Shown: positions 9,498 through 30,198 of the stretch, one piece after another
Layout of the letters: each line of letters starts with the position of its first letter
Position numbering within the stretch: position 1 is the stretch's first letter
Source of the DNA: Aureimonas ureilytica DSM 18598 = NBRC 106430
GTDB lineage: Bacteria > Pseudomonadota > Alphaproteobacteria > Rhizobiales > Rhizobiaceae
Length of the DNA stretch: 64,000 bases
Assembly: GCF_000382705.1 (NCBI RefSeq)
Contig: NZ_ARQE01000007.1
Location: forward strand, 186,433-250,432
Direction: 5' to 3'
The notes under the pieces: generated by a model
Seen by the model: only the letters and a program-made list of their open reading frames with translations
What the model was told of the DNA's origin: nothing
The model's database searches: none
Position numbers and translations under genes: made by a program

Positions 9498-9565
9498 CCG
9501 CATTCTCCTTCTGGCCTTCGGAAATGCGCGAGGGGTGATCGGGTTGCCGGGTCGGAACGCGACGA

Positions 9566-9581
9566 GTTGTCAGATGACAAC
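9566..9581. repeat. parS-like centromere palindrome, copy 1
   Basis: GTTGTCAGATGACAAC has seven-base inverted arms around a two-base centre and fits the GTT-N10-AAC layout of repABC parS sites. It is the exact reverse complement of the copy inside repB at 11264-11279. It should be bound by RepB for partition. Confidence 0.75.
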
Positions 9582-9945
9582 GAGCAAAGACGGGAGAAGG
9601 GAGGTGAGACGGGTCGCACACAAGGCTGCAGGTGGCGACTCGGCGCGGAAGCTATTAAGATTTGAGAAACCCGCCCGTGGGCGCGAGTCGTCTTGCGACT
9701 CACCGGGGCGTCAGCGCGGCACGAGCGACGCCGCGTTTTCCCGCAGCGCATGGATTGGTTCGCTCTCGCGCGGCGCGAGGGGGCGGGCCAGTCTCCATTC
9801 TGCCAAGTCCTTGATTTCACGGGAGGGCAGGGGGTTCGGCAGCCTTTCGAACGCGCTGATTTGCGCTTCGAACCACGCGACTGCCGAAGCTTTCGTGGAC
9901 TTGTCAAGGGGTGCTTGCGACTCGGACGGAATCATGAGCAAATGC

Positions 9946-9985
9946 CAGACGGAATTTATCCGTCTGACGCCATTAGTCCGTCTGA
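9946..9985. promoter_or_regulatory. Candidate RepA operator: repeated CCGTCTG units before repA
   Basis: CAGACGG (9946-9952) and CCGTCTG (9960-9966) form a perfect inverted repeat with a seven-base AT-rich centre. A further direct copy, CCGTCTGA, follows at 9978-9985, 18 bp after the previous one. The cluster ends 14 bp before the repA start. RepA autorepression through an upstream palindrome is established for repABC operons; that this is the operator is inferred from position and symmetry. Confidence 0.5.
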
Positions 9986-9999
9986 GGTTAGAGAGACAC

Positions 10000-11208
10000 A
10001 TGAAAGCCGCCCGGCCCCAGCCTGCGCCGCCGACCAATGCGACGCAGCGAATCACACAGCATGCCGAGCTGCTTTCGGCGCAGCTTCGCTCCATGCGCGA
10101 CGCGATGTTTCCGCCGACAGCGCAGAAGAGTTTGCGGAGTTTTTCCTCCGGTGAAGTCGCGCGGATCGTAGGTGTTTCAGACGGTTACCTGCGTCAACTG
10201 TCCCTCGATGGGTTAGGACCTGTCCCCACTTTATCCTCGGGGGGTCGGCGCTCCTATACACTCGGTCAGATGAACGAGCTGCGCACCTTCCTTTCCCAAC
10301 ATCGACCCAAGGAGGCCCTGGCCTTCGTCCCCCGCCGGCGCGCGGGCGAAAAGCTGCAGGTCCTGGCCGTCGCCAATTTCAAGGGCGGCTCGGCCAAGAC
10401 CACGACCTCGCTCTATCTGGCGCAATATCTGGCGCTGCAGGGCTATCGCGTGCTCGCCATCGATCTCGACCCGCAGGCGTCGCTTTCGGCCATGTTCGGT
10501 TACCAGCCTGAATTCGACATCGGCGCGAACGAAACGCTTTATGGCGCGATCCGCTATGACGACGAGCGCCGACCTTTGCGCGAGGTGATCCGCCCGACCT
10601 ATTTCGAGGGCATCCACCTCGTGCCCGGCAATCTCGAGCTGATGGAGTTCGAGCACGAGACGCCGCGCGCCATGATGCGCGGCGACCGGGGGCGGGACAT
10701 CTTCTTCCGTCGCGTCTCGGGCGTCATCGCGGAGGTCGAGGCCGATTACGATATCGTCGTCATCGACTGCCCGCCGCAGCTCGGCTTCCTGACGGTCGGC
10801 GCGTTGAACGCCGCGACGGCGCTTCTCGTCACCATCCATCCGCAGATGGTGGACGTCGCCTCGATGAGCCAGTTTCTGCTGATGACGGCCGATCTCATGA
10901 GCGTCGTGGAGGATGCCGGCGGCAAGCTCGATCTCGATTTCGTGCGCTATGTCGTGACGCGCCATGATCCGAACGACGTGCCGGAAGCGCAGATCGTCGC
11001 GCTTCTGCGCGGCCTGTTCCGCGAGGACGTGCTGGCTGCGACAGCCTGGAAGTCGACCGCCATCGCCAATGCCGGGCTCACCAAGCAGTCGCTCTACGAG
11101 CTCGATCGCGGCGCGGTGGGCCGGGCCGCCTATGACCGCGCGCTGGAAAGCGTCAATGCCGTCAACGCGGAAGTGGAATCCTTGGTGCAGGGGGCCTGGG
11201 GACGATGA
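10000..11208 (+). CDS. repA: RepA, ParA-type partition ATPase of a repABC locus
   Basis: This 402-residue protein is the ParA-like ATPase that segregates the replicon and represses its own operon. The N-terminal DNA-binding part contains SFSSGEVARIVGVSDGYLRQ, a helix-turn-helix region typical of repABC RepA. The deviant Walker A is KGGSAKT (residues 128-134), followed by DLDPQASLSAMFG and the Walker B DIVVIDCPPQLG. Length and motif order are those of canonical RepA. The start at 10000 was chosen because it gives the family N-terminus and follows GAGAGA. It overlaps repB by four bases (ATGA). Confidence 0.95.
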   Translation: MKAARPQPAPPTNATQRITQHAELLSAQLRSMRDAMFPPTAQKSLRSFSSGEVARIVGVSDGYLRQLSLDGLGPVPTLSSGGRRSYTLGQMNELRTFLSQHRPKEALAFVPRRRAGEKLQVLAVANFKGGSAKTTTSLYLAQYLALQGYRVLAIDLDPQASLSAMFGYQPEFDIGANETLYGAIRYDDERRPLREVIRPTYFEGIHLVPGNLELMEFEHETPRAMMRGDRGRDIFFRRVSGVIAEVEADYDIVVIDCPPQLGFLTVGALNAATALLVTIHPQMVDVASMSQFLLMTADLMSVVEDAGGKLDLDFVRYVVTRHDPNDVPEAQIVALLRGLFREDVLAATAWKSTAIANAGLTKQSLYELDRGAVGRAAYDRALESVNAVNAEVESLVQGAWGR

Positions 11209-12227
11209 ACAAGCGCTCCAAATCGATCGCCTCGATCTTCGCCACGCGGCCGGAAGCGGAAGAGTTGTCATCTGACAACGCCGCTCGGCCGCCTCGCGTT
11301 TCGTCCGGCTCGGTGCGCTCCATGAAGGAGAGCTTCAGCCAGATCGAGCGCGAGAACGAGACGCTGCGCCAGAGCCTGTCGGAGGGCGCGCGCATCGTCG
11401 AGGTCGATCCGTTCCTGGTCGATCCCTCGCCCTATGCGGACCGCTTCAATGACGAGGACGATCCGACGTCCTTCGACGCGCTGGTGGCCTCGATCGCGGA
11501 GAACGGGCAGGAAGTGCCGGTTCTCCTGCGCACCCATCCGCAAGACCCCGCGCGGTTCCAGACCGCCTTCGGCCATCGCCGCCTGCGCGCGGCGCGGGCG
11601 CTCGGTCGCCCCGTGCGCGCCGTCGTCAGAGAAATGGACGACGAGGCGCTGGCGCTGGCGCAGGGCATCGAGAACTCGGCGCGCCAGGACCTGACCTTCA
11701 TCGAGCGTGCCGTCTTCGCCGCGCGGCTGGAGGATGCCGGGCAGAACCGGCAGGTGATCGGCCGGGCGCTGAATGTCGACAAGGCCGAGGTCTCCAAGCT
11801 GATCGCGACGGCGCGCGCCGTGCCGGATGCGCTCGCACGGCATATCGGCCGCGCGCCGAAGGTGGGGCGCACGCGCTGGCAGGCGCTGGTGGAAGCGCTG
11901 AAAGGCGAGGGGGCCTTGGAGCGGGTCGAGGCGCATTGTCATACCGCGCCCACCGGTCTCACCTCCGACGAGCGCTTCACGGCGGTTCTCGCCGCAGCCA
12001 AGCGCGCGCCGACAGCTGCGCCCCCCGCCCCGGCGGAGCGGCCGATCCTCGCCCGGTCCGGTCGGCGGGTGGCGACGCTGACGCGCAGCGAGCGGGATGC
12101 CAGGCTGGTGATCGATCGCGAGGCCGGCACCGGCTTTGCCGATTTCCTGGCCGAGCGCCTGCCCGATCTCTTCGACGCCTATGAGCGCGAACGGGGCTCC
12201 GACCCCTCGCGGGGCGGTTCGTCATGA
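11205..12227 (+). CDS. repB: RepB, ParB-type centromere-binding protein of a repABC locus
   Basis: This 340-residue protein binds parS and partners with RepA. The N-terminus (MNKRSKSIASIFA) is the usual RepA-contacting region. The ParB nuclease-like domain follows, with its conserved GHRRLRAARALGRPVRA stretch and the ENSARQDLTFIERA box, and then a helix-turn-helix around NRQVIGRALNVDKAEVSKL. Length is typical. One parS-like palindrome lies inside its own coding sequence near the 5' end. The next gene starts 306 bp downstream, a gap that holds the antisense RNA. Confidence 0.95.
   Translation: MNKRSKSIASIFATRPEAEELSSDNAARPPRVSSGSVRSMKESFSQIERENETLRQSLSEGARIVEVDPFLVDPSPYADRFNDEDDPTSFDALVASIAENGQEVPVLLRTHPQDPARFQTAFGHRRLRAARALGRPVRAVVREMDDEALALAQGIENSARQDLTFIERAVFAARLEDAGQNRQVIGRALNVDKAEVSKLIATARAVPDALARHIGRAPKVGRTRWQALVEALKGEGALERVEAHCHTAPTGLTSDERFTAVLAAAKRAPTAAPPAPAERPILARSGRRVATLTRSERDARLVIDREAGTGFADFLAERLPDLFDAYERERGSDPSRGGSS
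11264..11279. repeat. parS-like centromere palindrome, copy 2 (inside repB)
   Basis: GTTGTCATCTGACAAC is the exact reverse complement of the copy at 9566-9581. It lies within codons 20-25 of repB. The pair brackets repA. Confidence 0.75.
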
Positions 12228-12390
12228 GCGCGGCGCTGACCAAGCGGGGAGGGCGCCCGCGCGGCGACCGGACCGCTCGCGGTCGGCGCCCCTTGTCGCG
12301 CGCGGTGTTCCGCGCGCTGTCTCATTCGGCCGGTTGCGCGTCTCGCGCCCGGCCGCAGCCGATCATCAACGAGGAGACGCCATAGGCAAA

Positions 12391-12443
12391 GAAAAAGGCC
12401 CCGAAGCGGGAGCCGCCGGAGCCTTCATCTGTATTCGTCGCTG
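12391..12443 (-). ncRNA. Antisense counter-transcribed RNA (repABC incompatibility RNA)
   Basis: The sequence shows a minus-strand promoter at 12450-12478 and, about 50 bases downstream, a terminator hairpin. The hairpin is AAGGCTCCG (12417-12425 on the minus strand) pairing with CGGGGCCTT (12395-12403) with one G-U pair, plus an inner GCGG/CCGC stem and a U run. The predicted RNA is about 53 nt, matching the size and position of ctRNAs that repress repC translation in repABC plasmids. The start point is estimated from the -10 box. Confidence 0.75.
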
Positions 12444-12449
12444 TTTGCA

Positions 12450-12478
12450 GGTTTAGCTCTCCCAGACCCCATCGTCAA
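12450..12478 (-). promoter_or_regulatory. Promoter of the antisense RNA
   Basis: On the minus strand, TTGACG (12473-12478) and TAAACC (12450-12455) are separated by 17 bases. The -35 is strong and the -10 is weaker. Confidence 0.65.
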
Positions 12479-12533
12479 GTGACATCGCGGCTTCCCGCCA
12501 CGGCCTCGCTTTGCCTCGCGCAAGGGAGACGCC

Positions 12534-13376
12534 ATGACGGAAGAACATTCCCGCACGCCCTGGAGCGTGCGCGGACCGATCCTCGCGCCTGATGGCGGGA
12601 GTGACGGAGCGAGAGCCTATGGCCTGGAGGCTGCGCTCGTCGAGGCGCCGCACCCGGACTTCCTGGCGCGTGCGGCGATCTGGCGCGAGCATCGCGCCGG
12701 CTTGATCTCGCTTGCCGAGGCGCGGCGTCGCTCCAGCCTGATCGGCGCGGAGCCGGTGGCCCGCCAAGCCTCCTCGCGCCCCCAGGCGCCCGCTCTGCCG
12801 AAAGCGCCGCGCCCGCGCGCGCTTGCCCGCCACAAGCGCCCCGCGCCGCAGGAGAGCCGCCAATACGCGCAGTCCATGGCGACGACAGCCGCGCGCGACG
12901 ATCGACTGACGCCCAATGCCAAGGCCTTCCTGCAGGTTCTTCGCGCGCGCTGCGGCAAGGGCCGCCAGACCACGATCACCAAGGGCACGGCCGCCAACAT
13001 CATGGCGCGCTCGCCCCGCACCATCCGTCGCTATCTCGCCGACCTCGTGCGCTTCGGCTATATCGAGCTGCGCATCCGCGTGAACGGGCGGGGGCTGCAT
13101 CTCGGCCTCACCGTCACGCTCACCGATCTCGTCACGCCCTTCTACGAGGACATGCGTCAGCTCGGCCGCTGGCTGGCGGAGGTGCCGGAGGCGGGCGCGC
13201 GTCGCTTCGCGGGGCTGTTCGATCCCGCTAGAGCTGGGGTGACATCGGCGACACCCAGAAACCAAGTTCCAATGAATCTTTCCTTGAAGAGCTGCGATCA
13301 TCCGGTGATCGACGCGTTCAAGGGGCTCAAGAAGCTCTGGAGGGAAGGAAGGGCAAGCGCCGTGCCGGTTCTCTGA
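12534..13376 (+). CDS. Putative replication initiator (winged helix) in the repC position
   Basis: This 280-residue protein occupies the place of repC but lacks the recognisable RepC sequence and is well short of the usual 400 or more residues. The N-terminal 120 residues look variable and basic. A conserved-looking core spans about residues 120-215: LTPNAKAFLQVLRARCGKGR, then a helix-turn-helix around GTAANIMARSPRTIRRYLADL, VRFGYIELRIRVNGRGLHLG, and LTDLVTPFYEDM. This resembles winged-helix proteins of alphaproteobacterial plasmids. The start has AAGGGAG upstream. Its position behind repAB and a ctRNA suggests it starts replication. That is inference, and it could instead be a regulator with the true initiator elsewhere. 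Confidence 0.6.
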   Translation: MTEEHSRTPWSVRGPILAPDGGSDGARAYGLEAALVEAPHPDFLARAAIWREHRAGLISLAEARRRSSLIGAEPVARQASSRPQAPALPKAPRPRALARHKRPAPQESRQYAQSMATTAARDDRLTPNAKAFLQVLRARCGKGRQTTITKGTAANIMARSPRTIRRYLADLVRFGYIELRIRVNGRGLHLGLTVTLTDLVTPFYEDMRQLGRWLAEVPEAGARRFAGLFDPARAGVTSATPRNQVPMNLSLKSCDHPVIDAFKGLKKLWREGRASAVPVL

Positions 13377-13534
13377 ACTCCCCGCGTCCCTGTCGGGCGC
13401 TGCAAAGCCGAGCAGGCGTCCTCTTTCTCCGGAGAGAGCGCGGAGTCACGCCCTGTCGAAACAGGGTGCCAAGCTTCGATCGCTGGGCCTATGCTGACTG
13501 ACGAGATCCAATACGTCGAGACGGGAGACAGGGC

Positions 13535-14236
13535 ATGAGCGAGAAGACAGCGATCGTCACGGCCGGGGGCAGCGGCATGGGCGCGGCGGCGGCGCGGCGT
13601 CTGGCCGAGGACGGCTACAAGATCGCGATCCTCTCGTCCTCGGGCAAGGGCGAAGCGCTGGCGGAGGAACTCGGGGGCTTCGGCGTCACCGGCTCGAACC
13701 AGTCGGTGGACGATCTCCAGCGCCTCGTGGACGGGGTGATGGAGCGCTGGGGCCGGGTGGATGTTCTCGTCAACAGCGCCGGACACGGGCCGCGCGCGCC
13801 GATCACCGAGATCACGGACGAGGACTGGCACAAGGGGCTCGATGTCTATCTCCTGAACGTCGTGCGCCCGACCCGGCTCGTCGCGCCGATCATGCGGGCG
13901 CAGCAGAGCGGCGCGATCGTCAATGTCTCGACCGCCTGGGCCTTCGAGCCGAGCGCGCAGTTTCCGACCTCGGCCGTGTTCCGCGCGGGGCTTGCCGCCT
14001 ACACGAAACTTTTCGCCGACGCTCACGCCGCCGAGGGCATTCGCATGAACAATGTCCTGCCCGGCTGGATCGACAGTCTGCCCGCGACCGAGGAGCGTCG
14101 GCAGGGCGTGCCCATGGGCCGCTATGGCCGGGCGGAGGAAGTCGCCGCGACGATCAGCTTCCTCGCCTCGGACGGCGCGGGCTACATCACCGGCCAGAAC
14201 ATCCGCGTCGATGGCGGCCTGATGCGGTCGGTCTGA
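13535..14236 (+). CDS. SDR family protein lacking the YxxxK catalytic pair
   Basis: This 233-residue protein has an SDR Rossmann fold: TAGGSGMGAAAA at the N-terminus, VLVNSAG in the middle, a Ser in VNVSTAWAF, and a C-terminal GQNIRVDGG. At the place of the catalytic Tyr and Lys (YxxxK, followed by A in classical SDRs) the sequence reads TSAVFRAGLAAYTK, so Tyr is replaced by Ser and Lys by Arg. The protein may be a divergent or non-catalytic SDR. The start follows GGGAGA. The next gene begins 4 bp after the stop, so the two are likely co-transcribed. Confidence 0.85.
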   Translation: MSEKTAIVTAGGSGMGAAAARRLAEDGYKIAILSSSGKGEALAEELGGFGVTGSNQSVDDLQRLVDGVMERWGRVDVLVNSAGHGPRAPITEITDEDWHKGLDVYLLNVVRPTRLVAPIMRAQQSGAIVNVSTAWAFEPSAQFPTSAVFRAGLAAYTKLFADAHAAEGIRMNNVLPGWIDSLPATEERRQGVPMGRYGRAEEVAATISFLASDGAGYITGQNIRVDGGLMRSV

Positions 14237-28692: not shown

Positions 28693-30198
28693 GTGAGCGA
28701 GCTTCGATTTGAGGACGTCGCCAAGCGGTTCGGCGGCACGCAGGCATTGAAGGGCGTCAGCTTTTCCGTGCGCTCGGGCGAGGTCGTGGCGCTGCTCGGC
28801 GAGAACGGGGCGGGCAAGTCCACCGTCATCAAGATCCTCGGGGGCATCCACAAGGCGGATGCCGGGCGGATCGCCATCGACGGCACGCCCTACAGCCACG
28901 AGGCCCGGGGCACCGCGGGCGCCAGGCGCGCGGTCGCCTTCGTCCATCAGGATCTCGGCCTCATCGAATGGATGACGATCGCCGAGAACGTCGCCCTCGC
29001 CAACGGCTATCCCCGGCGCGGCGGGGGAAAGCGCGGGCTCGTGGACTGGGAGCGCGTGCGGGGGCAGGCCGTGGAGGCGCTGGCGCGGCTCGGCTGCGAC
29101 TTCGACCCCGACACGCGCGTCGCCTCCCTGTCACGCACGGAAAAGTCTCTGGTAGCGATCGCACGCGCGCTCGCCACCGATTGCGCATTCCTGGTTCTCG
29201 ATGAGCCGACGGCGAGCCTTCCCGCCGACGAGGTGGAGAAGCTGATGCAGGCGGTGCGCCGGCTCGCGGCCGGGGGCGTCGGCGTCATCTACGTCTCGCA
29301 CCGGCTGGACGAGATCTTCCGCGTCGCCGACCGGGCCGTGGTCCTGCGCGACGGCGCGCTGGCGGGGGAGGGGCGGATCGCCGACCTCACGTCCAAAGAC
29401 CTCATCGCCCAGATCGTCGGTACCGGCTCGCTGAAGCTCTACGAGAAGCGGCCGGCGCCCGAAAACGCCAAGGCCCGCGTCACGGTGCGCGGCCTGACGA
29501 CGGCCGGGGCCGGGCCGGTCGGTTTCGACATCCGCGAGGGCGAGATCCTCGGCCTCGTCGGCTTGCGCGGCGCGGGTCAGGAGGCGGTCGGCCGCGCGCT
29601 CTTCGGGGCGCAGGCGCATGGCGGCGCGGTCACGATCGACGGCGCGGCGCCGGACCTTTCCTCCATGCGCGCGGCGCTCCGGAGCGGCATCGGCCTCGTC
29701 GCGCGCGACCGGGCGGAGGAGTCGGTCGCCGCCGCGCTTTCGGTGCGCGAGAACGCCTTCCTCAATCCCGGCGCCTTCGGCCGCAGGCTCCTGTCCGTCC
29801 GCTCGCCGGGGCGCGAGCGAGAGGAAGCGCGCGAGCTCGGACGCCGCATCGGCCTTCGCCCCAACGACCCGGACCTTGCCATCGAGGGCCTGTCGGGCGG
29901 CAACCAGCAGAAGGTCATCGTCGGCCGCTGGCTGGAGACCGGCCGCCGGCTCCTGATCCTCGAGGACCCGACGGCGGGCGTCGATGTCGGCGCCAAGGCC
30001 GAGATCTATCGCCTCGTGGAAGCCGCCGTCGCGGCCGGCCTCGCCGTCCTCGTCGTCTCCACCGACTTCGAGGAAGTGGCGACGCTCTGCCACCGCGCCC
30101 TCGTCTTCAACCGCGGCACGATCATCGCGGAACTCTCCGGCGACGCGGTGACGACCGAGCGCGTGATCGCCGCCGCCAGCGCCTCCGAAGCCGCCTGA
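28693..30198 (+). CDS. CUT2-type sugar ABC transporter ATP-binding protein (RbsA-like, two ABC domains)
   Basis: This protein of about 501 residues has two fused ATPase domains. The first has Walker A GENGAGKST and Walker B FLVLDEPTAS. The second has the degenerate P-loop GLRGAGQEAV and the signature GLSGGNQQKV, as in RbsA/XylG/MglA. The start is the GTG at 28693 behind TGGGAGG. It heads an operon with a permease and a binding protein, controlled by a GntR-type operator. The likely substrate is a sugar or sugar acid of the idonate/gluconate route (inference). Confidence 0.92.
   Translation: MSELRFEDVAKRFGGTQALKGVSFSVRSGEVVALLGENGAGKSTVIKILGGIHKADAGRIAIDGTPYSHEARGTAGARRAVAFVHQDLGLIEWMTIAENVALANGYPRRGGGKRGLVDWERVRGQAVEALARLGCDFDPDTRVASLSRTEKSLVAIARALATDCAFLVLDEPTASLPADEVEKLMQAVRRLAAGGVGVIYVSHRLDEIFRVADRAVVLRDGALAGEGRIADLTSKDLIAQIVGTGSLKLYEKRPAPENAKARVTVRGLTTAGAGPVGFDIREGEILGLVGLRGAGQEAVGRALFGAQAHGGAVTIDGAAPDLSSMRAALRSGIGLVARDRAEESVAAALSVRENAFLNPGAFGRRLLSVRSPGREREEARELGRRIGLRPNDPDLAIEGLSGGNQQKVIVGRWLETGRRLLILEDPTAGVDVGAKAEIYRLVEAAVAAGLAVLVVSTDFEEVATLCHRALVFNRGTIIAELSGDAVTTERVIAAASASEAA

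Follow-up and report, generated by a model that had tools for sequence, protein, structure and literature searches.

Among the large-plasmid systems of Alphaproteobacteria, repABC is a major one, and RepC is regarded as the part that defines it. Here, we describe a repABC-like locus of Aureimonas ureilytica DSM 18598 whose third gene encodes a protein of another family. The stretch analyzed, called the window, comprises 64,000 nucleotides and corresponds to positions 186433-250432 of contig C7 (NZ_ARQE01000007.1), a 272-kb contig of the 5.09-Mb genome G000, which is assembled in 44 contigs. The repABC order is kept in it: repA and repB are followed by a gene on the minus strand for an RNA resembling a counter-transcribed RNA (ctRNA) and by a gene for a 280-residue protein, and two parS-like palindromes are present. 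The last gene occupies the repC position at 12534-13376, where the preliminary description had placed it, and is called the HTH gene below after its helix-turn-helix (HTH) region. We consider it probable that the locus is the basic replicon of a large plasmid with RepAB partition, a 280-residue initiator, an origin inside the initiator gene and control by the ctRNA, and that this initiator belongs to a mobile cassette which has replaced repC several times. The features of the locus are listed here.

9566-9581, no strand: parS-like palindrome GTTGTCAGATGACAAC, upstream of repA, exact match
10000-11208, plus strand: repA, repABC-type partition ATPase (TIGR03453, E 2e-186, over the cut-off)
11205-12227, plus strand: repB, repABC-type centromere-binding protein (TIGR03454, E 2.8e-99, over the cut-off; PF07506, E 9e-18)
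11264-11279, no strand: parS-like palindrome GTTGTCATCTGACAAC, within the 5' end of repB; same site in plasmid pAU20b of Aureimonas sp. AU20
12386-12444, minus strand: gene of the antisense ctRNA with a hairpin-terminator and, after it, a run of T; predicted 5' end of the transcript
12450-12478, minus strand: promoter-like site of the ctRNA, -35 TTGACG (12478-12473), poor -10 TAAACC or CTAAAC (12450-12456)
12473-12533, plus strand: conserved leader from alignments of upstream regions, ribosome-binding site AAGGGAG at 12522-12528
12534-13376, plus strand: HTH gene, putative 280-residue replication initiator at the repC position (38-member alignment; PHROGs replication initiation in 37 of 38)
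12903-13064, plus strand: winged-helix core, residues 124-177, sub-threshold HTH_36; modelled helices and strands with 10-residue means of the predicted local distance difference test (pLDDT) of about 49-69
13230-13274, no strand: candidate initiator site or origin core, conserved at synonymous sites (identity at 4-fold sites)
13250-13349, no strand: AT-rich dip, candidate melting region at the 3' end of the gene (GC 0.52)

The profile scan of repA began at base 10003, so that its first residue was omitted. The 16-bp palindromes near repA and repB are two perfect-armed copies of GTTGTCANNTGACAAC. The pattern GTTGTCA-NN-TGACAAC occurs exactly twice in the window (at 9566 and 11264), with 0.03 copies expected at up to two mismatches, and these are the only perfect-armed GTT-N10-AAC palindromes on C7; pAU20b has two at the corresponding places. 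The stricter parS consensus with a GC centre is GTTNNNNGCNNNNAAC, which is absent from the window. The earlier view that all parts around the third gene are of canonical repABC type thus holds for RepA and RepB and was slightly generous for the parS sites and the ctRNA.

A Putative Initiator at the repC Position

In Pfam, the 280-residue protein matched HTH_36 alone and near the threshold (22.6 bits, cut-off 25), and it matched nothing in NCBIfam. HTH_36 was seen by Pfam in 22 of 38 family members at E <= 0.1 (best 5e-8). The replication initiation family phrog_270 of PHROGs matched 37 of the 38 (best E 1.4e-7); among the controls, none of four other HTH proteins matched it, and three of three RepC proteins did so weakly. 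The match covers the winged-helix region and nothing else in the protein. L130, which has a stop in the stretch taken, and L143, whose frame is broken, were excluded from the protein alignment and from the HTH tree.

A single RepC (PF03428), accompanied by its own repA, is encoded in the genome of the window, on contig C8. The 280-residue family has four members in this genome, on C7, on C22 and twice on C15. Of the 21 genomes of the genus, 10 have a match to the family (one partial); weak matches counted, so do 20 of 394 genomes of the taxonomic family and 9 of 397 of the order. The named organisms are Aureimonas, Jiella, Fulvimarina and Maritalea. The comparisons below use 41 non-redundant loci, from which duplicates and the partial or weak matches L111, L120 and L135-L138 were excluded and to which the later matches L158-L169, including a third copy in genome G043, were not added.

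Six complete circular plasmids carry the HTH gene, and none of them has a RepC, a Rep_3 or a DnaA C-terminal domain. An intact repC or other initiator elsewhere on the same replicon had been considered from the outset; C7 contains none of the four initiator families searched (RepC, Rep_3, RPA and DnaA C-terminal domain), but it is not a closed molecule. Of the 17 open frames selected on the small contig C22, 13 were covered, the HTH gene among them, and the other 12 proteins scanned included no known initiator. A survey of repA at E <= 1e-60 in the 21 genomes of the genus gave 14 loci in six genomes: RepC adjoins repA at five, the HTH gene at eight (four in tandem, four divergent), neither at one and both at none. 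A sixth, weak RP-C match, in G011, has no such repA.

These distributions bear on the possibility that the HTH protein serves partition or copy number as an accessory regulator, with an unrecognised initiator elsewhere on the replicon. Several observations lean that way or count against an initiator role. The HTH_36 match is weak and no other Pfam family matched, and the phrog_270 E-values are modest (9.3e-5 for the window protein, over about 70 residues). The AlphaFold model of the HTH protein is weak (mean pLDDT 49) and had no Foldseek match at E <= 0.001. One of the six complete plasmids, pAU20e, carries an RPA initiator as well, pAU20g has a primase/polymerase gene, and the 62-kb contig C15 holds two HTH genes (L032 and L034) with differing ctRNA tails; for these reasons some HTH copies may be spare, and C15 is possibly a fused or two-origin replicon. 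The initiator search, moreover, covered four families, and C7 is open. On the other side stand the occurrence of RepC or the HTH gene, never both, at 13 of 14 repA loci, a ctRNA control of the kind used for initiators, replication-initiation matches common to the family and found in none of the control HTH proteins, and the lack of a known initiator besides the HTH gene among the proteins scanned on C22. On balance, we regard the accessory role as unlikely and initiation of replication as the probable function.

MarR-type regulators were the best matches of the model in the PDB by Foldseek, at E 0.06 or worse, and were not used as evidence; a sequence search of the PDB gave nothing useful. The structure predictions rested on alignments of six rows for the HTH protein and four for RepC.

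Relation to RepC

The claim that the third gene is not a recognisable RepC was borne out, since neither PF03428 (RP-C) nor PF11800 matched in the Pfam scan and the comparison of the HTH family with RepC by hhalign gave a probability of 15% over 28 columns. The protein might nevertheless be an extremely shortened, fast-evolving RepC. Both are winged-helix proteins with a local profile match of those 28 columns, both match phrog_270, and a RepC of 306 residues exists in Phaeobacter piscinae (L153, plasmid pP18_f, 2299-3219). With PF03428, however, this last protein reaches 101.7 bits, which means that a RepC does not escape notice merely by being short, and the HTH family has conserved parts of its own outside the winged helix. 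With the low hhalign probability added, a shortened RepC appears slightly less likely still than an accessory regulator. The C-terminal match of the Phaeobacter RepC is under the cut-off, and the protein is annotated merely as a helix-turn-helix protein.

The ctRNA, the Leader and the Putative Initiator Gene as One Cassette

The Rfam model ctRNA_p42d (RF00489) matched the minus strand at 12386-12428 with 31.7 bits (E 2.9e-5 in 401 bases). As the gathering score of the model is 50, the ctRNA was missing from the gathering scan of the whole window. The fold of the ctRNA beats all 200 shuffles (z -3.08), and in all 33 copies checked the outer arm of the hairpin pairs at 6 or more of 7 positions; the right arm is constant and two-sided changes are absent, so that covariation gives the hairpin no support. 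The TTGAC element at -35 is present in 32 of the 41 loci.

A covariance model of our own for the HTH-type RNA, R1, gave the window ctRNA 75 bits (E 1.4e-17 in 516,615 bases). It was trained on 23 of the 41 loci, the window copy (L121) being one training row, and high R1 scores are therefore partly by construction. On C7, C15, C22 and the searched parts of C8, R1 detected a copy at each of the four HTH genes, besides a weak match at the repABC site of C8. In the six complete plasmids, it found pAU20b, pAU20c, pAU20e, pAU20g and Jiella (twice), with just a weak match far from the gene in Maritalea. Four of the five RepC-type loci of the genus gave 13-17 bits exactly in the gap between repB and repC and the fifth (L183) none, while Bradyrhizobium gave 22.7 bits.

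With the Rfam model, RepC-type loci of other genera scored 50-65 bits in four cases and 30 in a fifth (L152); nothing was found at E <= 0.05 in Salipiger (L151), the short-RepC Phaeobacter locus, C8 or pAU20a. The HTH loci scored 28-33 bits; at E <= 0.05, 10 of the 16 gave 11 matches, including one of 35.1 bits that is a relic discussed below, and the RepC loci of the genus scored 27-29 bits in two of four. The Rfam model thus fails to separate the HTH type from the repABC type of the genus itself, which tells against a sharp distinction; R1 separates them. Because the Rfam scores overlap within the genus, the two types are taken as related, and on sequence grounds it is one antisense design that, at a deeper level, serves two initiator families. 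The S-element (RF00490) had no match in 12200-12600 of the window at E up to 10, which is a weak test as only three of nine RepC-type loci have one, and it was not reported in the HTH loci scanned.

The ctRNA precedes the HTH gene in 36 of 41 loci, 33 by the core pattern and three more by R1. The genes upstream vary: repB on the same strand in 11 loci, a CopG-like gene in 22, a divergent repA without CopG-like match in three and none recognised in five. In the alignment of upstream regions, a near-identical ctRNA and leader precede HTH genes without a nearby repB. With a hidden Markov model of the leader, E-values ranged from 1e-15 to 1e-18 for HTH loci and were only about 1 for repABC leaders, which matched in the right place. 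Since the same ctRNA and leader occur behind repB, CopG-like or other genes, the ctRNA, the leader and the initiator gene are, judged by this arrangement, one cassette. Against this, neither a ctRNA nor an upstream regulator was found in five of the 41 loci (L003, L011, L115, L119 and L134).

The preliminary description had proposed a swap in which the old gene left its control RNA behind. That the ctRNA belongs to a repC lost in this lineage, the coding sequence alone having been exchanged, is the least probable of the explanations considered here: the RNA is related to RF00489, lies in the usual place and scores no lower with Rfam than the repABC ctRNAs of the genus, and repABC leaders are among the best non-HTH matches of the leader model, but the same ctRNA and leader precede HTH genes without repAB, the repABC ctRNAs of the genus reach little or nothing with R1, and two loci (L107 and L130) hold both kinds of ctRNA in succession. 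The accompanying idea of a ctRNA that regulates an unrelated initiator survives in part; the antisense design is related to that of repC, and the window ctRNA is not the leftover of a local repC.

Two irregular loci were noticed. By eye, the minus strand of L003, which lacks the ctRNA core, has a different GC-rich hairpin followed by T residues at the position of the ctRNA, some 150 bases ahead of the HTH start; it is perhaps a diverged antisense RNA. Jiella pelagia unnamed2 (L010) has, at 29060-29211 of its record, a further ctRNA and leader ahead of a 175-residue frame whose end resembles the CopG-like protein by eye, with no Pfam match; the regulatory cassette seems to be duplicated ahead of both genes.

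Probable Replacement of repC Behind repAB

An initiator swap behind repAB had been suggested from the window alone, and it agrees with the mutual exclusion of RepC and the HTH gene at the repA loci, with the topology of the RepB tree and with ctRNA relics. In the RepB tree (30 rows, including 11 tandem loci, L130 kept), the 11 tandem repAB-HTH loci fall in three places: the C7 group beside two repABC loci of the genus (91/86, unstarred), a second group beside the repABC loci of C8 and pAU20a (97/91), and a third with the divergent HTH type. A single clade of all tandem loci was rejected (p value of the approximately unbiased test, p-AU, 8.4e-70), as was the joining of the two main groups (p-AU 5.5e-7). 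The three places and the rejection of a single clade argue for repeated replacement; long branches in several rows and unstarred support in parts of the tree weaken the case. RepC matched 2,330 plasmid records and the HTH family six; given this wide spread of RepC alone, a change from RepC to the HTH protein is the likelier direction.

In L107 and L130, the outer members of the C7 group, a second ctRNA, of the repABC type, lies directly after repB and about 350-400 bases ahead of the HTH-type ctRNA. RF00489 gave it 35.1 bits in L107, at about -490 to -440 relative to the HTH start (L173:409-450), and 39.4 bits in L130 (L130:2723-2768), and in neither locus does a repC follow. The stretch aligns with repABC gaps, among them that of Bradyrhizobium at 85-87% across 46 bases (E 5e-7 and 1e-10). 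L107 shows one more weak match (E 0.011), extending in the direction of the expected start of repC; no RepC frame was seen after it, and the draft genome (G010) has no RP-C match. These second ctRNAs are, from the alignments, likely relics of the repC swap. In the window, the rest of the gap between repB and the HTH gene matches no tested repABC gap better than E 0.2.

The series of repABC, repAB with old and new ctRNA, and repAB with the new ctRNA alone looks like intermediate stages of replacement. According to one account, some plasmids replicate with RepC and ctRNA alone, some repAB genes stand apart from repC, and module fusion may create new repABC plasmids, modular fusion and recombination of repC having been proposed (PMC2783167). 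The series makes this modular-fusion idea directly testable.

A Candidate Origin Inside the Putative Initiator Gene

A candidate origin lies inside the initiator gene, at a conserved block and the AT-rich 3' end, a placement suggested by the following features. At residues 236-247, identity at 4-fold sites reached 0.86, against a mean of 0.48 (standard deviation 0.10) over sliding windows in 595 divergent pairs, L011 and L134 being excluded from the pairs. Such conservation at synonymous sites points to a function at the DNA level. In 24 of 41 loci, the block contains the inverted repeat TGACA-n-TGTCA and then a sequence like CCAAAAACCAAAC. It overlaps the AT-rich dip, where the GC content of the window gene is 0.52 at 13250-13349 vs. 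mostly 0.65-0.75 elsewhere in the gene. Between the start codon and 300 bases past the stop, the lowest 100-bp GC content fell inside the gene in 33 of 39 loci.

No array of iterons was found in 12200-13540, where the longest family consists of three imperfect 14-mers, and no DnaA box within one mismatch in 9500-14000. The origin of p42d is comparable: it has neither iterons nor DnaA boxes and is located within, or close to, an A+T-rich stretch of repC (PMC3155836).

Two observations do not favour an origin at this place. The inverted repeat is degenerate in the conserved block of the window itself, and the GC skew of complete plasmids gives no consistent pointer to the locus. The cumulative extremes lie 112 and 136 kb from the HTH gene in pAU20b, 32 and 63 kb in C7 and 41 kb both ways in Jiella. 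Nearer extremes have mixed sign: a maximum at 10.5 kb in pAU20c, a minimum at 5.5 kb in Maritalea and a minimum at 0.8 kb in pAU20g, the profiles of the last two being no stronger than block shuffles. Cumulative GC skew was therefore set aside as uninformative for locating the origin.

Proposed Replication Control and Known Systems

The proposed basic replicon would be of the class of pAU20b. RepA and RepB would segregate the plasmid through the two parS sites, and the 280-residue winged-helix protein, rather than RepC, most likely starts replication. The antisense RNA of about 59 nucleotides on the minus strand would pair with the leader of the repA-repB-initiator messenger, most likely limiting synthesis of the initiator and thereby setting the copy number. 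Transcription of this messenger would be repressed by RepA and RepB, as stated for the repABC family. The cassette most often stands behind a small CopG-like gene, which may do the repressing where repAB is lacking. When the cassette moved behind repAB, in what appear to be several replacements of repC, repression by RepA and RepB would have taken the place of the CopG-like protein.

The locus resembles the repABC system (p42d of Rhizobium etli; pAU20a and C8) in RepA, RepB, parS, the antisense RNA between repB and the third gene, the terminal position of the initiator gene and the AT-rich candidate origin within it. It differs in that its third protein is not RepC and its ctRNA subtype falls below the Rfam cut-off. 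In RepC and ctRNA modules without repAB, the initiator is RepC, whereas here it belongs to another winged-helix family. Most of the 22 loci with a CopG-like (ribbon-helix-helix, RHH) gene appear to resemble pMV158, with its CopG repressor and antisense RNAII, in that such a gene is followed by an antisense RNA and then by an initiator (PMC4485353); the initiator is unrelated. Phage replication initiation proteins of phrog_270/HTH_36 share the winged-helix region with 37 of 38 members, and in the window protein the similarity covers about 70 residues, the rest being unmatched. RepQ, RepY and RepW are newly recognised plasmid types of Rhodobacterales (Alphaproteobacteria), and hence comparable as alphaproteobacterial replicons with newly recognised initiators; they differ in that their proteins are IncQ-type, RepL-like and Rep_1 and are carried by small plasmids that lack a partitioning system (PMC9025767).

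No description of repAB with this initiator was found in the open literature searched, which misses most subscription papers. A wider proposal, put forward tentatively as a whole, is that the proteins form an initiator family undescribed in that literature, carried in a ctRNA-leader-initiator cassette with an in-gene origin; that the cassette has displaced repC at least twice (probably three times) in Aurantimonadaceae-like bacteria, one antisense design serving two unrelated initiators; and that initiator cores are homogenised between co-resident plasmids in several genomes while the 5' tail of the ctRNA stays with the replicon and keeps compatibility. If an unrelated initiator can take over from RepC entirely while partition stays, such replicons are missed by plasmid typing based on repC, and partition and replication can be studied as separable modules.

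Possible Exchange Between Co-resident Plasmids

In the HTH tree, genes of the same genome with different partition genes are sisters in several genomes, namely pAU20b and pAU20c (91/82), two genes of G023 (100/99) and two of G043 (100/100). For these co-resident sisters (L112/L102, L109/L116 and L123/L139), the topology suggests gene conversion or swapping inside the cell. The four HTH copies of the window genome are not sisters of each other.

Three replicons of the pAU20b type, each from a different species, share one ctRNA tail exactly, and the same is true of three replicons of the pAU20c type. Identical tails occurred in none of 22 same-genome pairs vs. six of 506 other pairs, a difference that was not significant by permutation (P 0.41), and the mean tail similarity was higher within than between genomes (P 0.994). 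In view of both results, the tail as a compatibility determinant is only a suggestion from sequence comparison.

Outside the 41 loci, the family also occurs on an IMG/VR contig of 19.6 kb classed as viral (L158), which carries ParA, two RHH genes, a ctRNA and the initiator. It looks like a small plasmid, since its CopG-like protein is identical to that of L110, a locus in a genome of the genus.

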